Source: a virus
Strand: one strand, 5' to 3'
Virus record (IMG/VR): IMGVR_UViG_3300037137_000573
Location: 1-23,037 of that record
Length of the DNA: 23,037 nucleotides
Notes under the pieces: model-generated
What the model saw: the letters and a program-made list of their open reading frames with translations, nothing else
Database searches by the model: none
What the model was told of the DNA's origin: nothing
Shown: in pieces, positions 5,983 through 22,153 of the stretch
How positions within the stretch are numbered: the stretch's first letter is position 1
Layout of the letters: the number at the start of each line of letters is the position of its first letter
Position numbers and translations under genes: made by a program

Positions 5983-6960
5983 TTACGGGGCCGTTACGCC
6001 GGTTGCGACTACCGTGGCGGGCACATGCACGACCTTGCAGTCGGCACGGGCCGTCACGATAAAGCTTGTGCCACCCTCACGCGGGTCGCGGAACGTCTCC
6101 AACTTGACCTGACGCCTAAAGCCGACGAGTAGGTTCCGAGGATGGACGAGCAGGATCTTGTCGTCGCAAGCGTACTCATCAGTCTCTGCCGCAGCCATCA
6201 TCGGAACACCAACGACCTTGATCCCCTCGTAGGTGAGCGGCATAATGCCCATCAGGTACTGGTCGCCGAGTGGAGTACCACGAGCAGCGATCTGCTCGCG
6301 ATAAGCGAGGGCAACCTTCCAAGGACAATAGAACCGCATACCCTGAGGGTCGGTGAAGAACTGGCTGGGAAGGGACCGAACCATCGCAGCGAAGATCGAC
6401 TGGTAGTCCTTACCATAGGTCCCCGAGGCGACGACGTTGTACCCCGCGCCTGTAGCGGCCTGGATTACGAAGCCGTCAAGCAGCCCGTAGTAAGTGTTGG
6501 CCGCGGCGTCCTTCCCCCGGATGAATAGCGCCTCGAGGTCCAGTCCGGCACGCTCAGCGATCAACGCTACGATCGTGTCCGCGAACCCCTCGCGCTCGAT
6601 GTTGTCTTCGAACACCTCGTCGGAGATCGGAACCTCACCGCGCACCAGTTGGGTACTGACCTCGATACCACTGAGAGTCGGCTCAGATCGCTCTTGCCCT
6701 CCGGCGTCCGACAGACGCGTAAATTCGATTCCAGCCCTCAGGATACGAGAACCGAAAACGATCTTAGGCTCCTGCCACTTCGGGGTGTCCATGATCTTGA
6801 TCGTAGCCTCTTTCGAGACTATGGTCGATTCGATTGCCAGCCGCAGGAACTTTTCAGCCTGCGCAGGGTTCAGCAAACCGGTGTACCCGTAAGTGAGATC
6901 ACCGGTAGTCATCGCCACCTTGCGCAGCCGTTCGAGCAGCTGTTCGTTGGTCATCGTCAT
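5983..6960 (-). CDS. Major capsid protein, HK97-like fold
   Basis: This 325-residue protein starts at ATG 6960 with GAGGAGG upstream. Features typical of HK97-fold capsid proteins include an N-terminal helical arm (residues 1-45), then beta segments with charged loops (KIVFGSRILRAGIEF), the RGEVPISDEVFEDNIE region before a long spine-like helix (TIVALIAERAGLDLEALFIRG), a mid-domain with GTYGKDYQSIFAAMVRSLP, and late 'LVHPRNLLVGFRRQVKLETFRD' strands characteristic of the A-domain and P-domain junction. It lies immediately after the scaffold-like gene and downstream of the XkdF-type protease, the canonical order for a processed prohead. Confidence 0.87.
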   Translation of the reverse strand: MTMTNEQLLERLRKVAMTTGDLTYGYTGLLNPAQAEKFLRLAIESTIVSKEATIKIMDTPKWQEPKIVFGSRILRAGIEFTRLSDAGGQERSEPTLSGIEVSTQLVRGEVPISDEVFEDNIEREGFADTIVALIAERAGLDLEALFIRGKDAAANTYYGLLDGFVIQAATGAGYNVVASGTYGKDYQSIFAAMVRSLPSQFFTDPQGMRFYCPWKVALAYREQIAARGTPLGDQYLMGIMPLTYEGIKVVGVPMMAAAETDEYACDDKILLVHPRNLLVGFRRQVKLETFRDPREGGTSFIVTARADCKVVHVPATVVATGVTAP

Positions 6961-7901: not shown

Positions 7902-8159
7902 TCACCTCCTCCCTTGACGACTACTCACCGAATCTCTTACGGACACTTCCGGAACATGTACGACACGTCCCCGGGTACTTTTGAGTATGATGTCCAGTTG
8001 CGCCTGTTGGTTGAGTCGGATAGTGCCCACGAATCGTTCGTCAGTAGACAACAGCAGTATCCACTGTCGGACGACTTCTGGTAAGGTCGTCCACACAGCC
8101 TGAATCTCGGGCAGACGCCGTAAAGTACTAACCTCAGGTACAGTGGAAAGTGTTGTCAT
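7902..8159 (-). CDS. Small protein of unknown function after XkdF protease
   Basis: This 85-residue protein starts at ATG 8159 in a four-base ATGA overlap with the protease gene, so the two are translationally coupled. It is helical in the middle (LPEVVRQWILLLSTDERF) with a beta-like segment (QAQLDIILKSTRGRVVHVPEV) and a basic C-terminus. No motif is recognised and there is no signal peptide. It is the last gene before the structured intergenic region and the scaffold/capsid genes. Confidence 0.6.
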   Translation of the reverse strand: MTTLSTVPEVSTLRRLPEIQAVWTTLPEVVRQWILLLSTDERFVGTIRLNQQAQLDIILKSTRGRVVHVPEVSVRDSVSSRQGRR

Positions 8160-9247
8160 GCGGGTTTCCTCTGGGCCACCCCGTGTAACGATAGTCCCGT
8201 CATCTCGCCGCTCTTGATTCGTTCCCAGTACTCAGGCTTCCAAAGAACCCCTACCAGCCAGTCGCCCGGGTCAACTTCCTCACCGCCAATGTTCCACTTA
8301 GGTCCCCTATAGACGTAACTTTCCACGACGTCTCCAGCCTCTTCATAATCGGGTGACTCGTCGTGCATGTATCCGACCTTGCCTCCGCGGCGCAAATAAT
8401 ACCACGCGGCTTCTTCAACCGTACGTGCATCAGCGGTCTCACCGTGGGCATCCACTTCGTCGACGGGGTAGGCGATACTTAGAGTGTAACGATCCTCGTC
8501 ACGCTTCTCCAGCAAGGCCCCCAAAGAAGCACTCTTAGTCAGTCCTTCCACTTGCGGGTTCTTGATCTTTCCTTGATGAGGTTGCTGAGCTGCCTCCGCC
8601 GGCAAGTCACCGATCACCAACGCTTCCCGCAAAGTCCCGCCGGAATGCTGTTCGATCCACTTGCGGGCCTTATCTTTTGTCCAATCGGCTTCCTTGTCGA
8701 AACGAATCGCCTGGACCACCATACTATCAGGACTGTGGCCCTCAGGCACCTTGTCGGAATTAAGTTTTCCGATTATGCTCGACGCGCCCTTCGTCCCGGT
8801 CAGCTGAATGGTTCGAAAAGTGTCAGAACGAAAGTCTTCAGGCTCCCGGACTCGATAACGGATCTGGTTTTCTGTTTCTTCAAAACCGATCGCCTCTTCG
8901 AGTACCTCGGATTCGTCTAAGGCCCCATGCGAATGATGGGCGGCTCCGCGGCGTCCGATTTCTTCAACCACCTGGGAGTGAACGGCGATAATATCTCCAG
9001 CCTCTCGGCTCAACCGCAGCCTCGTAGCGTACAACTGATGTAGCCGAAGATGCAGACGTTGCAGGGCGAGAGTCGACAGCTGGTCGAGCTTTTTCACTTC
9101 GCGAGCGTAGTGTTCAAGCTGTTCCTCAGTCATTCCATCATACATTACCTTAGCCGCCCCCGTGAGAGTCTTAGGGTCCTTCTGGCCTCGTTTAGCAGCG
9201 AGCGCCATCGCGGCACTTGTGCGCTGGGCTTCTGATCTAGCAGGCAT
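8156..9247 (-). CDS. DUF3008-XkdF fusion: putative prohead serine protease
   Basis: This 363-residue protein starts at ATG 9247 with GAGGTAA about seven bases upstream. Residues 1-55 (MPARSEAQRTSAAMALAAKR, then a KVMYDGMTEEQLEHYA segment) resemble DUF3008. Residues about 130-215 form a mixed domain, and residues about 260-363 match the XkdF-type phage serine protease: YPVDEVDAHGETADARTVEE, then GYMHDES with H295, VVESYVY with E309, GDWLVGVLW, and GEMTGLSLHG with S353 as the likely nucleophile. This class processes scaffold and capsid during maturation. The downstream neighbours, scaffold and capsid genes, fit. The DUF3008 N-terminus is an unusual attachment. Confidence 0.82.
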   Translation of the reverse strand: MPARSEAQRTSAAMALAAKRGQKDPKTLTGAAKVMYDGMTEEQLEHYAREVKKLDQLSTLALQRLHLRLHQLYATRLRLSREAGDIIAVHSQVVEEIGRRGAAHHSHGALDESEVLEEAIGFEETENQIRYRVREPEDFRSDTFRTIQLTGTKGASSIIGKLNSDKVPEGHSPDSMVVQAIRFDKEADWTKDKARKWIEQHSGGTLREALVIGDLPAEAAQQPHQGKIKNPQVEGLTKSASLGALLEKRDEDRYTLSIAYPVDEVDAHGETADARTVEEAAWYYLRRGGKVGYMHDESPDYEEAGDVVESYVYRGPKWNIGGEEVDPGDWLVGVLWKPEYWERIKSGEMTGLSLHGVAQRKPA

Positions 9248-10601: not shown

Positions 10602-11348
10602 CTATTGTGTCGCTACTTGTAGGTCCTGCTGGAAGTCGCCAAGATTCAGGGCCAACTGAAGCATCGTGTCACGGGCGTCGATAACACCGTAGGCCTCATC
10701 GCAGTAGGCCGTAATATAGGGCCACGAGAGTTGTCTTGGCCCAAAGCCGGCCCAAGTGTCAGCGATCCAAACACCACACTCGTCATAGCCGATAGCGCAG
10801 ATGGCGTGCCCTCCGAGCAATCTATCTGCGTCGGAAGTCTGGATAAGTCCTGTGCGTTGCTTGTACATGGTTTCGGTAACCATCACACCCAAGTCTAGCA
10901 CGCGCATGGCTACCATCGACCGTTTCATCTCCGGGTCATTAATTGCTACCTCAACGAACCCGTCGATCTTATACCTGTATTTGCGCCTTAGCCACGGAAA
11001 CCAGCCCACCTCGCCCACATACCCAAGGGTACGCCACTGCTTAAGCAGGTCAAGCATGTACGCGCCCCCGCCAGGCTGAGCGATCCGCTCGTACTTGGCA
11101 ACAAGTTCTGCTCGAGCGAACGTTGGAGTCCGCGTCTGTTCCAGACGCTCGAAACGCAGTTGGGCGGTAGCGGCGCTGAAGACCGTACAGGCAGGGTACC
11201 CGTTCTGGTCCAGCAACGGGAATCTGCGTCGCCCCTTGTCGAAGTGGTATTGCGTCGGAGGCTCTGCTACGAGCAAATACTTTGCGGCCTGCAAGTTACG
11301 ATCATCGGGTTTCTTCGGTAGTCGGCCTAGGCCTCTATAGTCGGTCAT
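10602..11348 (-). CDS. Papain-like (C1) cysteine protease
   Basis: This 248-residue protein starts at ATG 11348 in an ATGA overlap with the portal stop. It shows the papain triad in order: DQNGYPACTVFSAA with Q48 (oxyanion hole) and C54 (nucleophile), GGHAICAIGYDE with H181, and IADTWAGFG with D197 in place of the usual Asn of the N-S-W-G motif. The stretch GGGAYMLDLLKQWRTLGYVG between them also matches the C1 layout. There is no signal peptide or prodomain. Such proteins occur in some phage head modules with unknown role; this one is followed by two membrane proteins, so a role in lysis or entry is as plausible as virion processing, especially as a separate XkdF prohead protease is present. 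Confidence 0.8.
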   Translation of the reverse strand: MTDYRGLGRLPKKPDDRNLQAAKYLLVAEPPTQYHFDKGRRRFPLLDQNGYPACTVFSAATAQLRFERLEQTRTPTFARAELVAKYERIAQPGGGAYMLDLLKQWRTLGYVGEVGWFPWLRRKYRYKIDGFVEVAINDPEMKRSMVAMRVLDLGVMVTETMYKQRTGLIQTSDADRLLGGHAICAIGYDECGVWIADTWAGFGPRQLSWPYITAYCDEAYGVIDARDTMLQLALNLGDFQQDLQVATQ

Positions 11349-12910
11349 CCTGGCTCTCCTACGGATCCCTCGACCGCCAAGTGATCTATTCCCTCACGTA
11401 GTTCAACGAGTTCCTGCGACAGCCGTTCAAAGAGATCCTGCGTACCCCGAGGAACTGCACCGTTCCCTGAGGTGACCCGCGGTGCCGAGGGCCCAAGAGG
11501 CATCAATACGTCTCCGTCCGGCCGTGTCGGTAGCCCGAGGCGCACGCGCGCTTCATTGACGGTCATTATGTGTCCATCAACCGCCTCCACCACCGTTTCC
11601 ACATCAGCACGGAAATCGGTCGTGTCCAGCTCTTCCGGCTGCCAGGTCCAATTATTGATCTTGAACTCCTTGCTGAAGAACCGGTTCCAACGTTGCCCCA
11701 AAACATTCTGTGCAGGAGCAATAACACCGTACTTGTACACAACGTCAGACTGCTTAGCCGTAGAACCTCCGAGGGAACCCACAATCGGCCACCCAATGCG
11801 ATACGGCGGCACGCGATGCGCGATGACGATTTCAAGGTTAATGGCTTGAGTGTACCATCTGAAGCTCATGTCCCGGATCTGGTCAGAGAGCCGTTCGAAC
11901 CGCACCTTCACCCGGTTTTCGCCGCTCGGCCGCGAGGGTATATAGGGGATCTCGGCCACGAACGTTCGGTGCGGTTGGCCCCGAACCTCACGCTTGAAGA
12001 ACACCTCCAAGTTCTCCTGGAACTTGGGAGACATCTTAGCACCCTCGACCAGTACCGCCCACGCGGGCATCGCCGAGTGAGTGAAGTATTGGAGGTTGAA
12101 ATCACGCGCTGCTAGAGACGCAGTGATGGACCCAATCGCCGCTATGTATTCCGGGATCCCGTAGTAACTGGAACGAGACACGGGGCGCCGGAACACAAAC
12201 ACCTCGTTCGCTCGCTGTTCATCCGGGAGGTTCTCCTTCGTGAAACGACCGGACTTAACGTCTACTATCTGTTTCTCGCCCCACTTCTTGAAGTACGCGA
12301 ACTTACCCTGGCGAAACTGACAGTAGCGAACCTTGTCTTTGTGCACCCGCATCGTGTGTCCAGGAATGTGATACAGCTCTGCAACCTTACCGCCACCGTC
12401 TCGCACAATCTCAACGTAGGCGTTCCCGAGAGTTTCACGATCGTCCTGAACACTCTCCAGGAGTTCCTGGAAAGTCATATCCTCATTGGGCCAAGCGAGC
12501 AGTTCCTCGACGACCTCAAGTTCCCCGCGGTCAGTCCCTTCAACCTTCGGCACCCATTTCCACCCCTTACCGATAGTATCCGCCGTCTTCTGAGACAGGC
12601 ACGAGCTGTGAAGGGTCTGCATCTCCTTAAGATACAACAGCTGATCCAGGTTATAAGGGGGCTGTATAAGAGCAAAAGGGGTTTCGTAACGAGCACTAAA
12701 GGGGTCCTCAGGAATCTGCTTCGACGCCTTCCGTAGAGTGGTCTGTGTGGCCCGTTTCGTCAACTCGTCGTAGAGCTTCGTGGGCTCAGTCACAGCCCCG
12801 TCTTCAAAGATGTACGCAGCTACTTCACCCTCGAACTCCGGGTCTTCGGGCACTTCGGGCACTTCGGGCACTTCGGGCACTTCGGGTACTTCGGGTACTT
12901 CGTTAGTCAT
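11345..12910 (-). CDS. Portal protein
   Basis: This 521-residue protein starts at ATG 12910 with GGAG at normal spacing. After a short repetitive V-P-E N-terminus it has the typical portal core: FALIQPPYNLDQLLYLKEMQ (about residues 77-96), SCLSQKTADTIGKGWKWVP, FQELLESVQDDRETLGNAYV, a YHIPGHTMRVHKD strand, the VFVFRRPVSRSSYYGIPEYI segment, and later LEIVIAHRVPPYRIGWPIVG, which corresponds to the conserved stem/wing region. The portal ring is the DNA entry channel and nucleates capsid assembly. It follows the large terminase and precedes the protease genes, as expected. Confidence 0.93.
   Translation of the reverse strand: MTNEVPEVPEVPEVPEVPEVPEDPEFEGEVAAYIFEDGAVTEPTKLYDELTKRATQTTLRKASKQIPEDPFSARYETPFALIQPPYNLDQLLYLKEMQTLHSSCLSQKTADTIGKGWKWVPKVEGTDRGELEVVEELLAWPNEDMTFQELLESVQDDRETLGNAYVEIVRDGGGKVAELYHIPGHTMRVHKDKVRYCQFRQGKFAYFKKWGEKQIVDVKSGRFTKENLPDEQRANEVFVFRRPVSRSSYYGIPEYIAAIGSITASLAARDFNLQYFTHSAMPAWAVLVEGAKMSPKFQENLEVFFKREVRGQPHRTFVAEIPYIPSRPSGENRVKVRFERLSDQIRDMSFRWYTQAINLEIVIAHRVPPYRIGWPIVGSLGGSTAKQSDVVYKYGVIAPAQNVLGQRWNRFFSKEFKINNWTWQPEELDTTDFRADVETVVEAVDGHIMTVNEARVRLGLPTRPDGDVLMPLGPSAPRVTSGNGAVPRGTQDLFERLSQELVELREGIDHLAVEGSVGEPG
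12845..12898 (-). repeat. Six tandem 9-bp units encoding V-P-E in the portal N-terminus
   Basis: Six 9-base units (GT[A/G] CCC GAA) run back to back just after the first four codons of the portal gene, followed by a diverged D-P-E unit. Copy number changes would keep frame and only change the length of an acidic, extended N-terminal tail. The two 5' units use GTA and the other four GTG. Confidence 0.95.
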
Positions 12911-13052: not shown

Positions 13053-14459
13053 TCACAGCAACATCGATTCTTCCAGCTCCGTGCTTGTTGAGCCTGTAGG
13101 CTCAATGCCCAGTTCGTGACACATGGTCAGTGCAAGAGCATCTCCGCGGTCCGGAGAGGGCACACCCCGTCTTCGAGCCGCCTCCTTACTTTCCATCAGG
13201 AGTCCCTGCCGCCCGTAAGAGTACTTGACGCTAGTCAGCTGGGCACTCAGAAAGTCATCATCAGGAAGCTGCGCAGGGCCTTGAAGCCAAGTACGTAGGG
13301 CCCACCACATCTCGGCTCGCAGGTTTGCGAAACGTTGCGGATCGGACGCTCTCTCAGACACAACGATCCCGACAACCACGTCGTCAAGGCCGTCCGCAAC
13401 ACAAACGTCTACCACTCCGGCGCCAATACCAATTGCGTCGACGTATACAGCCTCGGGTTCCTCTTCGTCGATCAGGGCCTTCAAGCGACCTACGACCTCG
13501 TTCTGATCCCAACCGAAGTAAGCCTCAGGCTCCTTGATCCAGTTTCCGCGTCGCACTTGGAAAACCGTTTCTGCACCTCCAGCGCGCGCAACGTCGACGC
13601 CGATAACGCAGGGCACGTCCTTCGACGGAGGTTCGGCAGACCATCGAGTCTGTGCCGCTTCTACCCACGATAGCAAAACCAGAGAATCAGCGGACTGCGA
13701 AGGAAAGTCCCCGAGGATATGCACCTGCCACAGGGGAGTGTCCTCGCCCCACTTAGTTCTCTTGTCCTCCACCCAGGAAGGCTTGATCAGGTAGGGTCGA
13801 ACGACGGCACCTGGCTGAAAGTTCGGGGTATCGAAGGCCCCATAGTGCAGAGTCTTATAAGAGTTCCGGTTCTTGTGGAAAGCGTCATAGAACGCCCCTT
13901 GAAGGGTGGTAGGGTTCCCAAGGAGCAGCACTCGGGCATCACCGCCAGCGGCCAGAGTGTCCACGCCGTCCATGACGTCTTCACTCATGCCCGACGCTTC
14001 CGTGATGATAACCAATAGGTGAGGACTGTGGAGACCTTGTACTCTCTCCTTAGTGTCTGTGCTTAATCCTACCGCGAACCGTTTTTCAGATAACTGCAAA
14101 CTGGTCTGGTTCAGAGTACCCCCAATTGGGACAGCGGCTCTGTGATAAGCGTAGTGGAGGTCTCTCCAGTGCAGGTCGTGTACCTGGTGCCACGAGGGGG
14201 CCAACGTCACTACTGCGCACTCTTCCCAAATCATTAGCCACCACAACGCGAGTTGTGCAGCAAGCCAATCCTTTCCAACAGCGTTGCAGCTCCTCACCGC
14301 GACCTGCTCGCCCTGAGCAACAGCTCGAGCGATCTCCTCCTGCCCAGTCCAAGGATCTCCCCGCAAAGCTCCACGAATGAACGGTATCGGATCCCGACGC
14401 CAAGTCTCTAGGAGGTCCGAGGCTTGGGCGGTGTCGATCGTACCAGCCGGGCTCTTCAT
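13053..14459 (-). CDS. terL: Terminase large subunit
   Basis: This 468-residue protein is counted from ATG 14459 (a GTG lies one codon upstream). The ATPase domain has a Walker A-like motif VRSCNAVGKDW (residues 55-65), an adenine/arginine-side region VVTLAPSWHQVHDLHW, and a Walker B-like strand LLVIITEASGM (148-158), in which the usual Asp before Glu is Thr153; E154 is the catalytic carboxylate. The C-terminal RNase H-like nuclease begins at CVIGVDVARAGGAETVF (about residue 283) with further acidic strands AVYVDAIGIGAGVVD and PDRGDALALTM. It translocates DNA into the prohead through the portal and cuts the concatemer. The small subunit gene is directly upstream. Confidence 0.95.
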   Translation of the reverse strand: MKSPAGTIDTAQASDLLETWRRDPIPFIRGALRGDPWTGQEEIARAVAQGEQVAVRSCNAVGKDWLAAQLALWWLMIWEECAVVTLAPSWHQVHDLHWRDLHYAYHRAAVPIGGTLNQTSLQLSEKRFAVGLSTDTKERVQGLHSPHLLVIITEASGMSEDVMDGVDTLAAGGDARVLLLGNPTTLQGAFYDAFHKNRNSYKTLHYGAFDTPNFQPGAVVRPYLIKPSWVEDKRTKWGEDTPLWQVHILGDFPSQSADSLVLLSWVEAAQTRWSAEPPSKDVPCVIGVDVARAGGAETVFQVRRGNWIKEPEAYFGWDQNEVVGRLKALIDEEEPEAVYVDAIGIGAGVVDVCVADGLDDVVVGIVVSERASDPQRFANLRAEMWWALRTWLQGPAQLPDDDFLSAQLTSVKYSYGRQGLLMESKEAARRRGVPSPDRGDALALTMCHELGIEPTGSTSTELEESMLL

Positions 14460-14483
14460 CACACAGGCACTCGCTCTTCGAAC

Positions 14484-15107: not shown

Positions 15108-15375
15108 TTTTCAGCTCCCACAAGTGCTGTACGGTCACTTGTGAAATACCTAACTCCCGCGCAACCTCAGCAGAAGTAAGGCCCTTTTTCTTTAACTGCC
15201 ACGCACGCTCCAGACGAATCCGGTGACGCACGCTCTTCAGAGACAAGTCGTGTCGACACGAGGGGAGAGGACAAGCGAGGCAAGAGGGGAAAAAGTAGCA
15301 GCCGGCATCCTTGTAGCGAACAAACTCGGGCAGCGCGTCTGCCCGAGGACGTGGCTTCACGCGTGCCTCAGTCAT
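15091..15375 (-). CDS. Cys-rich HTH DNA-binding protein
   Basis: This 94-residue protein starts at ATG 15375 in an ATGA overlap with HEG2. It has a cluster C26-x5-C32-x2-C35-x4-C40 (in AGCYFFPSCLACPLPSCRHD) that may bind a metal, followed by a clear helix-turn-helix: AWQLKKKGLTSAEVARELGI, then SQVTVQHLWE (residues about 58-87). It could be a transcription regulator of the late operon or a packaging accessory protein; its position just before the terminase genes fits either. No specific family symbol can be given. Confidence 0.75.
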   Translation of the reverse strand: MTEARVKPRPRADALPEFVRYKDAGCYFFPSCLACPLPSCRHDLSLKSVRHRIRLERAWQLKKKGLTSAEVARELGISQVTVQHLWELKNVPTT

Positions 15376-15965
15376 GTCCGATTCCGGCTCCGAACCGCTT
15401 TCACGTAAGGTCCCAGTTGCGCTTTACGTTTCGGTGAGATCACTTCTCTATACAGCCCGAGGGTCAGCTCACGTGCATCCTCTCCATAAATAGCCAGGAC
15501 ATGTTTGGGGTTACCCCTACGGTTAACTCCGGAATAGATCGAACCGGTCCCTAAGAAGGTCTGAATGGGCTCTAGCCACCCACGAACGGAGTTACAGAAC
15601 TTTACCGTCGGGGTCGCAGGATTAACGTTATTCTCCTCTATTGAACCGTCACCCTCCCAGAAACCAACCACCCAATGCCAAGTAGTAACCGGCGAGAGGA
15701 AGTGAGCGTAAAGGGCTTCGGCCGCTTCGGCACTGACCACCCAACACCAACACAACGAACCAGGAACAAAGCTCGCCTTACCGTTCCTGCGAAGATAAAG
15801 TCCGCCGAGACCGTAGCGCTCTTTGAGAAGCGCAGGCCAGTACTTTTCTTTCTGGCCAACGTAGAGTTGGGTCTGCCGATACACTTTCTTTTTACGGGTA
15901 ACGTCCCCCTTCAAGTGAAAGTGGCCCTCAGCAGCGAAAAAGCCCGCAGCCTGCTCGTCAAACAC
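15372..15965 (-). CDS. LAGLIDADG homing endonuclease (HEG2)
   Basis: This is a 197-residue protein if started at GTG 15965 (just before FDEQAAG). The frame extends to TTG 16013, but that codon lies within the promoter region, upstream of the predicted transcription start near 15978. It has two LAGLIDADG-type motifs: AAGFFAAEGH (residues about 6-15) and WVVGFWEGDG (about 98-107), each with acidic metal ligands. It is a paralogue of HEG1 (750-1367), differing mainly in the middle. As first gene of the leftward operon it shares a four-base overlap with the HTH gene, so it is transcribed with the packaging genes instead of standing apart. Confidence 0.88.
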   Translation of the reverse strand: MFDEQAAGFFAAEGHFHLKGDVTRKKKVYRQTQLYVGQKEKYWPALLKERYGLGGLYLRRNGKASFVPGSLCWCWVVSAEAAEALYAHFLSPVTTWHWVVGFWEGDGSIEENNVNPATPTVKFCNSVRGWLEPIQTFLGTGSIYSGVNRRGNPKHVLAIYGEDARELTLGLYREVISPKRKAQLGPYVKAVRSRNRT

Positions 15966-15984
15966 CGCTTCCGTTACCCCCTTC

Positions 15985-16013
15985 AGTATACCATGATCTT
16001 TCCGGAAAAGCAA
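15985..16013 (-). promoter_or_regulatory. Leftward promoter with extended -10
   Basis: On the minus strand TTGCTT (16013-16008) is followed after 17 bases by TATACT (15990-15985), with TGG directly before the -10 (extended -10). The predicted start near 15978 lies just upstream of the HEG2 GTG. It would drive HEG2, the HTH gene and the terminase/head genes. Confidence 0.6.
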
Positions 16014-16115: not shown

Positions 16116-16442
16116 ATGAAATTCGTTAAAGTAGACCCCCATGAGGCGCAGGACTTACTGACCCGGGAAGCGATACACCGAGGTCGCGTATCTTATCCGC
16201 TTCTGAAAAGTTTCCTGGAGTGTAAGATGTTTCTTGCTCGCCTCGACAAGGAGGGGCTAGGTCAGAAGAGCTACGTGCTCACCGCATCTTTGCGAGCCTA
16301 CGCCAAGAGTCACAACCTTCCCGTCGAAGTTTTCACTAGGCAGGGCGAGGTGTACTTTAGACGCCTGGATATTGACGAAGACGGCAAGCCCGTTGAGCAG
16401 GCCCGATTGATCGACCCCGATGTCGTCGCCGAGCACGCGTAA
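16116..16442 (+). CDS. First gene of rightward operon, unknown function
   Basis: This 108-residue protein starts at ATG 16116 with GAGGAGGG at good spacing. It appears folded: a helical N-terminal half (HEAQDLLTREAIHRG, LLKSFLECKMFLARLDKEG), then SYVLTASLRAYAKSHNLPVE and strands VEVFTRQGEVYFRRLDI. The first-position location and mixed alpha/beta pattern are common in small early phage regulators or host-takeover proteins, but no DNA-binding motif is obvious. It overlaps the next gene by 23 bases. Confidence 0.7.
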   Translation: MKFVKVDPHEAQDLLTREAIHRGRVSYPLLKSFLECKMFLARLDKEGLGQKSYVLTASLRAYAKSHNLPVEVFTRQGEVYFRRLDIDEDGKPVEQARLIDPDVVAEHA

Positions 16443-17094
16443 GCCACGGGCTCTCCTAGTAGTAGCGAGCGAGTTTAACGGCATCGAGCTGTTCGGAGCT
16501 CTGAAGGTACTGCGGCGCGAAGGAGCCGAGTGGACAATCGCCTCCCGAAACATCCGTATCAGTGACGAGGACACTCACGAGTACTTCAGTGCCAATATCA
16601 CAATCGATGATATGCTCAGCGATCTCAAGGAGCCCTTAGCCGATTACGACATGCTGTTTTTAGTCGGGGGCGAGACCGCCGACGTCATGTGGATGTGGGT
16701 GAGCCCTCAGATCGAACACATTGTCCGCAAGATGTACGAGGATGGTAAAGTCGTCGCTGCCACTTGCCGAGCCGCACCCTGTATTCGGTACGTAGCCCGA
16801 GGTAAACGAGTGACGGGGTTCCCTGTCGTAGACGTACTCGACTACTTACGCTCTGCAGGAGGCCACATCACGGGGCAGTCCCTGGAGTGCGACGGCCGGG
16901 TGGTAACTGCTGAGGCTCCGGCACTGACAGAGTACTGGGCCCAGGCGGTGGTAAACATCTTCAGAGGAGAGGACCCCCCAGAACTACCTGAATCGGCCTG
17001 GCAACAGATTGACTTCTGGCGACGCTTCAGAACCTACGTCTATAATAACACAGACGATACGCCCACGATCAAGAAACCGAAAGAGGCCAAATGA
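16420..17094 (+). CDS. DJ-1/PfpI-like (class I glutamine amidotransferase-fold) protein
   Basis: This 224-residue protein starts at ATG 16420, inside the end of the previous gene. It has the DJ-1/PfpI layout: an opening strand RALLVVASEFNGIELFGALK carrying the conserved acidic position (E18/E23), ADYDMLFLVGGETADV (about 74-89), the nucleophile-elbow region KVVAATCRAAPCIRYVARGK with Cys116, then VTGFP and a VECDGRVVTAEAP-like strand (LECDGRVVTAEAPAL). In PfpI the residue after the Cys is His; here it is Arg117, so protease activity is doubtful. Family members include chaperones, glyoxalases, deglycases and amidases. C-terminal residues beyond about 185 are an extension. Its phage role is unknown. 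Confidence 0.8.
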   Translation: MSSPSTRKPRALLVVASEFNGIELFGALKVLRREGAEWTIASRNIRISDEDTHEYFSANITIDDMLSDLKEPLADYDMLFLVGGETADVMWMWVSPQIEHIVRKMYEDGKVVAATCRAAPCIRYVARGKRVTGFPVVDVLDYLRSAGGHITGQSLECDGRVVTAEAPALTEYWAQAVVNIFRGEDPPELPESAWQQIDFWRRFRTYVYNNTDDTPTIKKPKEAK

Positions 17095-18236: not shown

Positions 18237-18707
18237 ATGGAAGTCATTAAAGCACCCACCCATTGGGACGAGAACGACGAACGTCAGTTCGTGTTCCTGT
18301 CGGGAAGTATCGAGATGGGCACGGCACCGAACTGGCAAGATAGGGTCATCGAGGGCTTAAAGGGCCAGAACGTCGTAATTCTCAACCCCCGACGCGACGA
18401 TTGGGACTCCTCCTGGATACAATCCATCGATAATCCTCAGTTCTACGAGCAGGTGACTTGGGAACTCGATGCTATGGACGTTGCGGACTTCATTATCATG
18501 CACTTCGAGCCTGGAACCAACTCACCAATCACTCTCCTGGAGTTGGGATTGTGTGCTCCCGACCCGAAGGAGCTTTGGGTGCACTGTCCGGAGGGCTTCT
18601 GGCGCAAAGGGAACGTCGACATCGTGTGCGCGAAGTACAAGGTTCCGCAGTATGACACAATGGACGAGATCCTGGAGAGGGTTCGTGCTCGGATCACCGC
18701 GCCTTAG
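18237..18707 (+). CDS. Nucleoside 2-deoxyribosyltransferase-like protein
   Basis: This 156-residue protein starts at ATG 18237, three bases after the preceding stop. It matches the phage/bacterial nucleoside 2-deoxyribosyltransferase-like family throughout: FVFLSGSIEMGTAPNWQ (residues 18-34), VVILNPRRDDWDSSW (46-60), WELDAMDVADFIIMHFEPGT (75-94), SPITLLELGL with E102 as the likely nucleophile, and CPEGFWRKGNVDIVC (117-131). Classical members swap bases on deoxyribonucleosides; relatives hydrolyse deoxynucleotides. In a phage this could serve nucleotide salvage, base-modified nucleotide supply or depletion. The exact reaction cannot be read from the sequence. Confidence 0.87.
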   Translation: MEVIKAPTHWDENDERQFVFLSGSIEMGTAPNWQDRVIEGLKGQNVVILNPRRDDWDSSWIQSIDNPQFYEQVTWELDAMDVADFIIMHFEPGTNSPITLLELGLCAPDPKELWVHCPEGFWRKGNVDIVCAKYKVPQYDTMDEILERVRARITAP

Positions 18708-19873: not shown

Positions 19874-20247
19874 TCCCGTCGTTCCCCGAGATGAATGTCC
19901 GAACGTACCGACTCGAACGGAGAGCTTATCGGCTCCGATTGAAGCGGAGCCACGATCCGGACCATCTAGGGTTCGTTGCACAACGTTGGGCCAACCGCGC
20001 AGGGCGCCGACGCGGGTACGCGGTGGGTAAGATCTTCTGGGACATTGACTGGCCGGACAGATCAGTAACGTGGCCAGTAACGTGGCGTTGGTTGTGCGTG
20101 TACTTCTCGACAGTCGAGGTCGAAGAACAGGACTACGAGCAGGTCGACGAGATCTTGAAGCGGGAATGCTGGAAGGGTCCGACGATTAGTATCGCCCGAT
20201 TGGTCCCGATAAGAATCGAGGAATACCGTGAACATCCAGGACATTGA
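19870..20247 (+). CDS. Hypothetical protein with tandem duplication
   Basis: This 125-residue protein probably starts at GTG 19870 (GTGA overlap); ATG 19891 is an alternative. It is basic at the N-terminus (YRLERRAYRLRLKRSHDPDH) and has several Trp residues (FWDIDWPDRSVTWPVTWRWL), then strands and an acidic helix (EVEEQDYEQVDEILKRECWK). The VTWP-VTWR pair comes from a perfect 12-base tandem repeat. It overlaps the next gene by 20 bases. Function not recognised. Confidence 0.55.
   Translation: MIPSFPEMNVRTYRLERRAYRLRLKRSHDPDHLGFVAQRWANRAGRRRGYAVGKIFWDIDWPDRSVTWPVTWRWLCVYFSTVEVEEQDYEQVDEILKRECWKGPTISIARLVPIRIEEYREHPGH
20063..20086 (+). repeat. Perfect 12-bp tandem duplication
   Basis: CAGTAACGTGGC occurs twice back to back within the 19870-20247 gene, adding four residues without shifting frame. 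It is consistent with a recent slippage duplication. Confidence 0.9.
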
Positions 20248-20473
20248 CGCTAAGGTGCAACGCATCCGAGAAACCGTGGAGAAAGGCGACTGGCACCGTG
20301 CCCGCATGCTAGAAGATCACCTGTACTGGGACGTACTCGGGGCTATTGCGGACGACGAGGTTATTGATCCGGGCCGAGCAGCTACCGCAGCTCTCATAGC
20401 AGCCGAAATCATGATTGATATGCCCATGAGCATCGAAAGCCGTTGTTGCCGAAGCCCGCAGGAGCCCGAATGA
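20228..20473 (+). CDS. Small hypothetical protein
   Basis: This 81-residue protein starts at GTG 20228 with GAGGAA suitably upstream, overlapping the previous gene. It is helical (IDAKVQRIRETVEKGDWHRA, AATAALIAAEIMID) and ends with CCRSPQEPE, in an ATGA overlap with the phosphoesterase gene. It is coupled to the DNA repair pair downstream, but no motif suggests a function. Confidence 0.6.
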   Translation: MNIQDIDAKVQRIRETVEKGDWHRARMLEDHLYWDVLGAIADDEVIDPGRAATAALIAAEIMIDMPMSIESRCCRSPQEPE

Positions 20474-20925
20474 ACGCTGACGTACTACTCTTCGTCGTCC
20501 AGAAACACGCCGCTCGACAGCTCCATTACGACTTCCGTCTAGAGGTGAACGGCGTCCTTAAGTCTTGGGCCGTGCCCAAGGGACCCTCCCTTAACCTCGG
20601 GGAGGCACGCTTGGCCATTCAGGTCGAAGATCATCCTCTAGACTATGCCTCCTTCGAGGGAGTCATCCCCGAGGGAAGCTACGGTGCCGGCCGAGTCATC
20701 GTCTGGGATACCGGTACTTACTCTCTTGACGAGGGCCGCACGGATGAGGGCAAGCTCTCTTTGACCCTGTACGGCCACAAGCTTAAAGGTTCCTGGACAC
20801 TGGTACATTCAAATCGCCGTCCCACACACTGGCTCCTGACTCGTCGCAGCGGCGACGAGGAGTCGGTCGACGAGCGCTCCGTCCTTTCAGGACTGACCCT
20901 CGACGATCTGAAGGAGAGACCCTAA
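20470..20925 (+). CDS. Stand-alone LigD-type 3'-phosphoesterase
   Basis: This 151-residue protein starts at ATG 20470 (ATGA overlap). It is a clear match to the phosphoesterase domain of bacterial LigD: FVVQKHAARQLHYDFRLEVN (8-27), VLKSWAVPKGPSLN (29-42), EDHPLDYASFEGVIPEGSYG (53-72) and GRVIVWDTGTY. The catalytic residues known from Pseudomonas LigD (H42, H48, D50, R52, H84, Y88) align with H13, H19, D21, R23, H55 and Y59 at identical spacing. The enzyme removes 3'-phosphates and 3'-terminal ribonucleotides so ends can be extended and sealed. No ligase or polymerase domain is attached and no Ku gene is in view. It abuts the EndoIII-like gene (TAATG). Confidence 0.93.
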   Translation: MNADVLLFVVQKHAARQLHYDFRLEVNGVLKSWAVPKGPSLNLGEARLAIQVEDHPLDYASFEGVIPEGSYGAGRVIVWDTGTYSLDEGRTDEGKLSLTLYGHKLKGSWTLVHSNRRPTHWLLTRRSGDEESVDERSVLSGLTLDDLKERP

Positions 20926-21671
20926 TGAACCAAGCGGTTGAACTCATCCTCAAGTTCCGAGACCAACTCCGCGAAGAGGGCCGTCTAGGGATCACGCGTC
21001 ACAGCATACCTGAAGAGGCGGCAGCATTCCTGAACGAGGAACCCCTAGCATTCCTAATCGGGGTACTCTGCGACCAGGGGATACTCGCTGAAAAAGCATG
21101 GGTGATACCGTGGAAGCTCAAGGAACGCCTCGGTTACTTCTCGGCCGGGCAGCTTGCCTCGGTGAACTACGAGGACCTCACGAAGGCGATGGCAGGGCCC
21201 CCTGCACTACACCGCTTCCCGAACCGCATGTCCGAGTTCATCACAGCCGCCTGTAGGAAGGTGGTCGAGAGGTACAACAGTCTCGCGGGGAACATCTGGT
21301 TTCCCGGGAGCACCTGTGCTGAGATCCAAGCGCGCCTAGAAGACTTCTGGGGTATCGGGCAGAAAAAGGCCTCGATGGCTGTGAACATCCTAGTCCGAGA
21401 CATGGGGGTCGAAGTTACTGATTACGAGAATATCGACGTATCCTATGATGTTCATGTTCGACGAGTATTTCAGCGAACAGACTTAGCCCAGTCTGACACT
21501 GAGAAGGCGATCGTAGAGGCAGGACGATTACACAACCCCGAGTATCCTGGTGCATTAGACCTGCCCTGCTGGGTCGTTGGCCGTGAATGGTGCCGCCCGA
21601 CGACGCCGGACTGTTGGAACTGCCCATTAACCTCAGGATGCCCGCAGCTGATTGAGAAGACTTCAGAATGA
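20925..21671 (+). CDS. Endonuclease III-like DNA glycosylase/AP lyase with [4Fe-4S] motif
   Basis: This 248-residue protein starts at ATG 20925, sharing a base with the phosphoesterase stop. It has a helix-hairpin-helix FWGIGQKKASMAVNIL (141-156) with K147 at the position of the EndoIII catalytic Lys120, a YDVHVRRVF motif with D175 at the position of Asp138, and a C-terminal C223-x6-C230-x2-C233-x5-C239 cluster (CRPTTPDCWNCPLTSGC), which is exactly the EndoIII [4Fe-4S] spacing. Both Lys and Asp present imply a bifunctional glycosylase/lyase acting on damaged bases. The N-terminal 60 residues and the Lys-Asp spacing (28 against 18) diverge from E. coli Nth, so the substrate may differ. Confidence 0.88.
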   Translation: MNQAVELILKFRDQLREEGRLGITRHSIPEEAAAFLNEEPLAFLIGVLCDQGILAEKAWVIPWKLKERLGYFSAGQLASVNYEDLTKAMAGPPALHRFPNRMSEFITAACRKVVERYNSLAGNIWFPGSTCAEIQARLEDFWGIGQKKASMAVNILVRDMGVEVTDYENIDVSYDVHVRRVFQRTDLAQSDTEKAIVEAGRLHNPEYPGALDLPCWVVGREWCRPTTPDCWNCPLTSGCPQLIEKTSE

Positions 21672-22153
21672 TGGAAAGACCGCTAAAGCCAACCAGAACT
21701 CCGAGGCCTACTAAGACGCCTACTCGAACGCCAACACCGTCTCCTACACCGACATCGACGCCTAGTCCAACAGCTACACCCGCGGAGGATCCAATGGATC
21801 ATGTAGAGACGAGCTTCACTCTCCTGATGCAGGAAATGGAGGCCGTGTGCGTGCCGCCTCAGTCCGACGACGTCCTGCGCCGGACAGAGACCTGTGTCTG
21901 GGGCGCAGCGAAGAAGGAGCTGTGTCAGAACTGTCAGGAACGTGAGGCAACAGAAAACTGGACGGGCGAAGGCGGCACTCTCGCTTACGTTCACGGAATG
22001 TACGACCGCTGGTGCAGAGTGTGTGTCCTCAGGGCCCAGATCGCCCATATACGCGAGGCAAACACACGGCTCCCCGAACTGGAAGCGGAACTCGCGAACC
22101 TCCTAGGCGAGGTTGGAGTGTTACGAGCGGAGCGCAAGGAGAAGGCAACATGA
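21668..22153 (+). CDS. Pro/Thr-rich tail plus zinc-finger and coiled-coil protein
   Basis: This 161-residue protein starts at ATG 21668 overlapping the glycosylase stop. Residues 6-39 are a low-complexity T-P repeat (such as TPTRTPTPSPTPTSTPSPTA). Residues 86-119 carry a zinc-binding pattern C86-x2-C89 ... C116-x2-C119 (LCQNCQEREATENW, then WCRVC), and residues about 121-158 form a coiled coil. ATG 21794 (M43) has GGAGG six bases upstream, so a shorter form lacking the T-P tail is likely made too. The zinc region suggests nucleic acid or protein binding; function unknown. Confidence 0.7.
   Translation: MMERPLKPTRTPRPTKTPTRTPTPSPTPTSTPSPTATPAEDPMDHVETSFTLLMQEMEAVCVPPQSDDVLRRTETCVWGAAKKELCQNCQEREATENWTGEGGTLAYVHGMYDRWCRVCVLRAQIAHIREANTRLPELEAELANLLGEVGVLRAERKEKAT
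21794..22153 (+). CDS. Short form of the zinc-finger protein from internal start
   Basis: ATG 21794 is in frame with the longer gene and is preceded by GCGGAGGATCCA, the best ribosome binding site in this gene. It gives a 119-residue protein starting MDHVETSFTLLMQEME that retains the zinc cluster and coiled coil but omits the T-P-rich segment. It may be the main product, with the long form produced by coupling to the glycosylase gene. Confidence 0.5.
   Translation: MDHVETSFTLLMQEMEAVCVPPQSDDVLRRTETCVWGAAKKELCQNCQEREATENWTGEGGTLAYVHGMYDRWCRVCVLRAQIAHIREANTRLPELEAELANLLGEVGVLRAERKEKAT

Follow-up and report, generated by a model that had tools for sequence, protein, structure and literature searches.

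An uncultivated tailed phage carries, side by side in one operon, genes for two known kinds of DNA repair enzyme: a stand-alone LigD-type 3'-phosphoesterase (PE) and an EndoIII-type HhH-GPD DNA glycosylase. The pair is real and slightly unusual; a dedicated pathway joining the two enzymes is not supported. With a probability of roughly 60%, we read them as two separately acquired host-type repair enzymes, each of which would perform the chemistry of its own family on phage DNA. The DNA analyzed here, which we call the window, is a single 23,037-base virus record from IMG/VR; since the record is linear, it is probably a fragment of the phage genome.

Genomic setting of the pair

Minus-strand genes for head, portal, and terminase proteins occupy the left two thirds of the window; from about 16.1 kb up to its right end, the plus strand carries an operon of small, closely packed genes (Table 1). 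The best terminase matches were 27 to 35% identical, and no close relative of the phage was found through them. The PE and glycosylase genes sit in this operon, to which they are tied by the small phage gene that overlaps the PE start. Downstream, a gene whose product has an N terminus rich in proline and threonine leads to a small HAD-family phosphatase gene, one of whose matches, phrog_415, is a polynucleotide kinase. The preliminary description of this DNA had placed the HAD gene some 480 bases beyond the glycosylase gene, and we measured 478 bases from the glycosylase stop; the phosphatase is a possible functional partner of the pair. We rejected host contamination at the contig edge as the main reading, since genes of phage families lie on both sides of the pair within one operon of overlapping genes.

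Table 1. Features of the window (coordinates in bases from its first letter)
Feature	Position	Strand	Evidence or context
Virion structural/head protein, phrog_1623	5983..6960	-	phage context
Portal protein	11345..12910	-	phage context
Terminase large subunit	13053..14462	-	phage context
Small phage gene, phrog_10733	20228..20473	+	4-base overlap with PE start
Stand-alone LigD-type 3'-phosphoesterase (PE), 151 aa	20470..20925	+	Pfam, NCBIfam, AlphaFold2 model
EndoIII-type HhH-GPD DNA glycosylase, 248 aa	20925..21671	+	Pfam, AlphaFold2 model, alignment
Gene between glycosylase and HAD	21668..22153	+	overlaps both, 4 bases each
Small HAD-family phosphatase, 117 aa	22150..22503	+	phrog_1238 (1.4e-16), phrog_415 (5.9e-8)

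The coordinates and frame of the two genes, and the single base they share (..CCCTAATGAACC.., A at 20925), were exactly as first described. From the gene upstream of PE to the window end, overlap with the next gene is nearly universal, so the shared base says little.

Other genes in the window were also recognizable. Two LAGLIDADG homing-endonuclease-like open reading frames (ORFs; 750-1373 and 15372-16013, both on the minus strand) lie among the structural genes, and another minus-strand gene (8156-9247) encodes an XkdF-type head protease (PF14550) with a DUF3008 domain at its N terminus. The phage arm holding the pair contains a nucleoside 2-deoxyribosyltransferase-like gene (18237-18707, plus strand) and a DJ-1/PfpI-like gene (16420-17094, plus strand), each with a phage-family match.

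A minimal LigD-type phosphoesterase

The upstream gene of the pair encodes a genuine member of the LigD 3'-phosphoesterase family. Its product matched Pfam LigD_N (PF13298) at 3e-42 (143.5 bits; cutoff, 31.1) and NCBIfam TIGR02777 at 179.3 bits (cutoff, 144). The ATG at 20470 is preceded by AGGAG, and no ribosome-binding site was found at TTG 20443, the only longer start. An AlphaFold2 model (pLDDT, 92.6) adopted the beta-barrel PE fold and resembled the LigD PE of Pseudomonas aeruginosa (3N9B; Z = 23.0, 52% identity over 143 aligned residues), the PE of M. paludicola (5DMP; Z = 21.9), and the minimal PE of the archaeon Ca. Korarchaeum (CkoPE, 3P4H; Z = 19.9, 1.0 Å over 117 residues). Besides the fold, the phage PE has in common with these enzymes the six catalytic residues that had been listed for it, H13, H19, D21, R23, H55, and Y59, which were invariant across a 15-member alignment. 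Their equivalents in P. aeruginosa are the metal ligands H42, H48, and D50 and the phosphate-site residues R52, H84, and Y88. A BFVD search with the model gave no match at an E value of 0.001, and a PE tree did not settle the placement of the phage PE.

Unlike bacterial LigD PEs, the phage enzyme is encoded alone and lacks the N-terminal KRDFxxTxEP segment (R14, D15, and E21 in P. aeruginosa), an absence that the preliminary description overlooked while naming the catalytic residues correctly. Residue 1 of the model aligned with residue 30 of 3n9b, and residue 5 aligned with residue 1 of 3p4h. The motif RD(F/L/P)..(T/S).EP was absent from all frames just upstream of the gene, as was KR..T.EP from the protein itself. 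KRDFxxTxEP occurred in 25 of the 26 cellular, plasmid, or prophage-edge PEs that were scored, although the segment is not universal in the family and is not a criterion for membership. A review ties the segment to 3'-phosphatase activity and not to ribonucleoside removal. PEs that lack the N terminus may depend on another phosphatase (PMC4797286).

Glu53 of the phage PE, the counterpart of P. aeruginosa Glu82, is also a phosphatase-linked residue and was kept. Because the phosphatase-linked segment is missing, the prediction is stronger for the removal of 3'-terminal ribonucleosides than for that of 3'-phosphates. On sequence grounds, we predict a phage PE biased toward ribonucleoside removal. 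CkoPE likewise lacks the N-terminal segment and yet reportedly has end-healing activity, and loss of phosphatase activity in the phage enzyme should therefore be taken as a prediction. The absence of the segment makes the phage PE a natural case in which to ask whether the two PE activities are separable.

An EndoIII-fold glycosylase from a widespread branch

The second gene, whose ATG at 20925 is preceded by AAGGAG, encodes a protein that scored 33.2 bits against Pfam HhH-GPD (cutoff, 26.2). The solved structures nearest to its AlphaFold2 model (pLDDT, 93.2) were those of EndoIII, with a Z score of 18.1 and a root mean square deviation of 2.6 Å over 205 residues for the Escherichia coli enzyme (2abk). 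These matches and those of the PE uphold the family first proposed for each gene. Like EndoIII (Nth) of E. coli (2ABK) and EndoIII-1/-3 of D. radiodurans, the glycosylase has the predicted fold, the catalytic Lys/Asp, and an identical 4Fe-4S spacing, but it is about 20% identical and belongs to a separate branch. The C-x6-C-x2-C-x5-C [4Fe-4S] loop spans residues 223 to 239. K147 in the HhH motif, the downstream D175, and the four cluster cysteines, all as previously noted, were invariant in all 44 sequences aligned, which came from many phyla. Judged from the alignment, conservation across so many lineages is far above chance.

The glycosylase stayed below the cutoffs of two NCBIfam families: the Nth equivalog TIGR01083 gave 24.8 bits (cutoff, 211.7), and the best match, TIGR03252, gave 98.1 bits (cutoff, 136.5). 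TIGR03252 describes actinobacterial HhH-GPD base excision repair proteins, which have a similar N-terminal domain with a PPALHRF-type motif; in contrast to the window glycosylase, an aligned actinobacterial protein annotated as such (L006) has no C-terminal Fe-S loop. Halogranum tailed virus 1 is another tailed virus with an EndoIII-fold protein (R4T712), although the latter is 17% identical to the window glycosylase.

Used alone as the query, the glycosylase sequence gave no match in a genome scan. A profile that included two phage homologs (L042 and L044, with a core identity of about 40%) detected 105 cellular loci; the top one was 51% identical. This branch, which has a DVHVRRVF signature, spans Actinomycetota, Chloroflexota, and many other phyla, and we found no characterized member of it. 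The window glycosylase grouped with Actinomycetota/Chloroflexota homologs (support, 100/100), and the second of the two large groups held the L042 and L044 proteins, so uptake of the branch by phages has probably occurred at least twice. Among Coriobacteriia and their relatives, the gene occupies a conserved chromosomal neighborhood, with a ribonucleotide-reductase-like gene close by at 20 loci; this setting suggests that the enzyme serves ordinary housekeeping repair. A Rhizobium plasmid (L007:1174-2462) carries a thymidylate-kinase-like gene directly followed by a gene for a small HhH protein that shares the PALHRF motif with the window glycosylase but lacks the Fe-S loop; from their sequences, these two genes are a possible base-modification or repair pair.

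Occurrence of the pair elsewhere

Recurrence of the gene pair, to which the preliminary description had looked for support, was not seen. A PE lay within about 5 kb of the glycosylase gene in none of 80 cellular loci. An HhH-GPD gene was found in none of the 21 other PE-bearing viral records, and neither a PE nor a glycosylase was found in 23 terminase relatives; many of the loci and records in these three sets are fragments, and the searches may have omitted near relatives of the window. In the genome with the closest glycosylase homolog (G027), about 0.86 Mb separates the PE from the glycosylase. At the level of whole genomes, PE was present in 22 of 32 that carry the glycosylase, versus 106 of 198 in the background of the phylum. 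We rejected linkage of the two genes in cells, as this difference is small and confounded by kinship and the genes are not close. With the adjacency missing from all other loci examined, the PE-glycosylase pair is so far a single case.

Phosphoesterases in other phages

Viral contigs were scanned for PEs with peptide patterns. A more diverse PE profile yielded 26 viral contigs with a PE, a few of them stand-alone, and contigs L002, L003, and L010 held a host LigD at a prophage edge. A tblastn search of 50,697 phage records with the window PE and two divergent phage PEs produced no match, and in the literature, a survey of about 3,000 actinobacteriophages did not find components of nonhomologous end joining (NHEJ).

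The most informative of the stand-alone PEs lies in contig L165 (2575-10560), where a primase, a UDG-3'-5'exo-PolA fusion, SbcD, PE, and SbcC are encoded in one direction. This PE has 149 amino acids, includes KRNF..T.EP, and sits between SbcD and SbcC. The genes after SbcC encode a gp32-like SSB, GTP cyclohydrolase I, a radical SAM protein, and QueC (preQ0/7-deazaguanine pathway). The module thus contains both a PE and a glycosylase domain, the latter of another family, and it speaks for a role of phage PEs at DNA ends. In contig L181, RecA-like and DnaB genes are near the PE.

Several phage PEs have unusual architectures. In three short ones (L179:7998-8420, L180:2461-2895, and L181:7989-8432), KR..(T/S).EP occurs in the loop after the HWDxRFE strand rather than at the N terminus, as if, to judge from the motif placement, the phosphatase segment had moved; the short PE of L178 lacks the motif. 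In L175 (8001-8327), an intein-like C-terminal motif, HNYFAGGILVSN, directly precedes the active-site strand (HFDLRLE), so that an intein likely interrupts the PE active site. Elsewhere (L166-L171, L173, L174, L176, L177, and L011), the PE is contained within ORFs of 280 to 3360 residues, in records of 17 to 340 kb, usually with KR(D/E)F..T.EP preceding it; these are possibly multidomain virion or polyprotein-like proteins.

Alternative explanations

The preliminary description read the pair as a compact excise-and-heal route. On this reading, the glycosylase would nick the DNA at damaged bases, and the neighboring PE, possibly aided by the HAD phosphatase, would free the blocked 3' end for completion by polymerase and ligase. 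The families and intact active sites behind this proposal stand, but the route itself we consider doubtful. The genes are adjacent with one base in common, the HAD gene of the operon could provide the phosphatase step that the PE may lack, and the L165 PE belongs to one module with a UDG-polymerase fusion. In mycobacteria, moreover, LigC and Prim-PolC are NHEJ-type enzymes that work with base excision repair (PMC5663958). Weighing more heavily with us, the adjacency recurred in none of the cellular loci, PE-bearing viral records, or terminase relatives searched, the two genes are far apart in G027, the PE is without its N-terminal segment, and overlapping genes are the norm in this operon. The 3' end left by an EndoIII-type lyase is an unsaturated aldehyde, and we know of no report of this group as a PE substrate. 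A coupled route would need either PE action on the aldehyde or the HAD protein as phosphatase. A phage-specific three-enzyme patch, in which the glycosylase would nick at oxidized bases, the N-terminally minimal PE would clear the blocked 3' remnant or nucleoside to leave a 3'-phosphate, and the HAD protein would remove that phosphate, is rather unlikely; if true, it would be a base excision route with the phosphatase half of the PE ceded to a separate enzyme.

About as likely as the coupled route is a role in end joining, with the PE trimming phage ends for host Ku/LigD or a ligase during circularization or repair and the glycosylase an unrelated neighbor. As precedent, the part of PMC7719229 that cites Pitcher et al. 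2006 describes mycobacteriophages Omega and Corndog as expressing Ku and using host LigD. Given how often PE domains occur in genomes of the phylum of the closest glycosylase homolog, potential hosts with enzymes of this kind are common there, and the position of the L165 PE between SbcD and SbcC also fits. Against this, bacterial NHEJ partner genes were not seen beside the phage PE in this fragment, and, as had been noted before, neither Ku nor an ATP-dependent ligase had a match within the window, a linear fragment of the virus genome. It is very unlikely that the glycosylase serves in offense or defense by excising modified bases from the DNA of the host or of a rival phage. DNA glycosylases can be antiphage weapons, as with Brig1-3 (PMC13160076), but Brig3 has a mixed alpha/beta AAG-like fold whereas the window enzyme is EndoIII-fold with an Fe-S cluster, and many of its cellular relatives lie in the ordinary chromosomal context described above. 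Still less probable, to the point of being hardly credible, is repurposing of the HhH-GPD protein for base hypermodification, as in phage alpha-glutamyl/putrescinyl thymine pyrophosphorylases. Phage hypermodification proteins of related fold were among the weak viral structure matches, but Pfam matches to those families were absent even at an E value of 10, the catalytic Lys/Asp and Fe-S cysteines are kept, EndoIII structures are the nearest, and no modification genes were recognized in the window.

Proposed function and implications

We therefore prefer to see two separately acquired enzymes at work on phage DNA, and we infer their activities, their substrates, and the benefit to the phage from what is known of each family. 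The glycosylase would flip out a damaged base, most likely an oxidized pyrimidine; Lys147 would attack C1', and the abasic strand would be nicked. The PE would act as a minimal beta-barrel enzyme like CkoPE, with one Mn2+ held by H13, H19, and D21, and would take 3'-terminal (ribo)nucleosides off nicks and ends; we predict little or no removal of 3'-phosphate. Acting with a host polymerase and ligase, or with phage ones still unseen, the two enzymes would keep the ends of phage DNA ligatable.

LigD-type phosphoesterases in phages have hardly been noticed so far. Judging by the window, the L165 module, and the short PEs of L178-L181, uncultivated phages may enlist the PE to process their own DNA ends; this little-noticed wider use is a more interesting lead than the pair itself.
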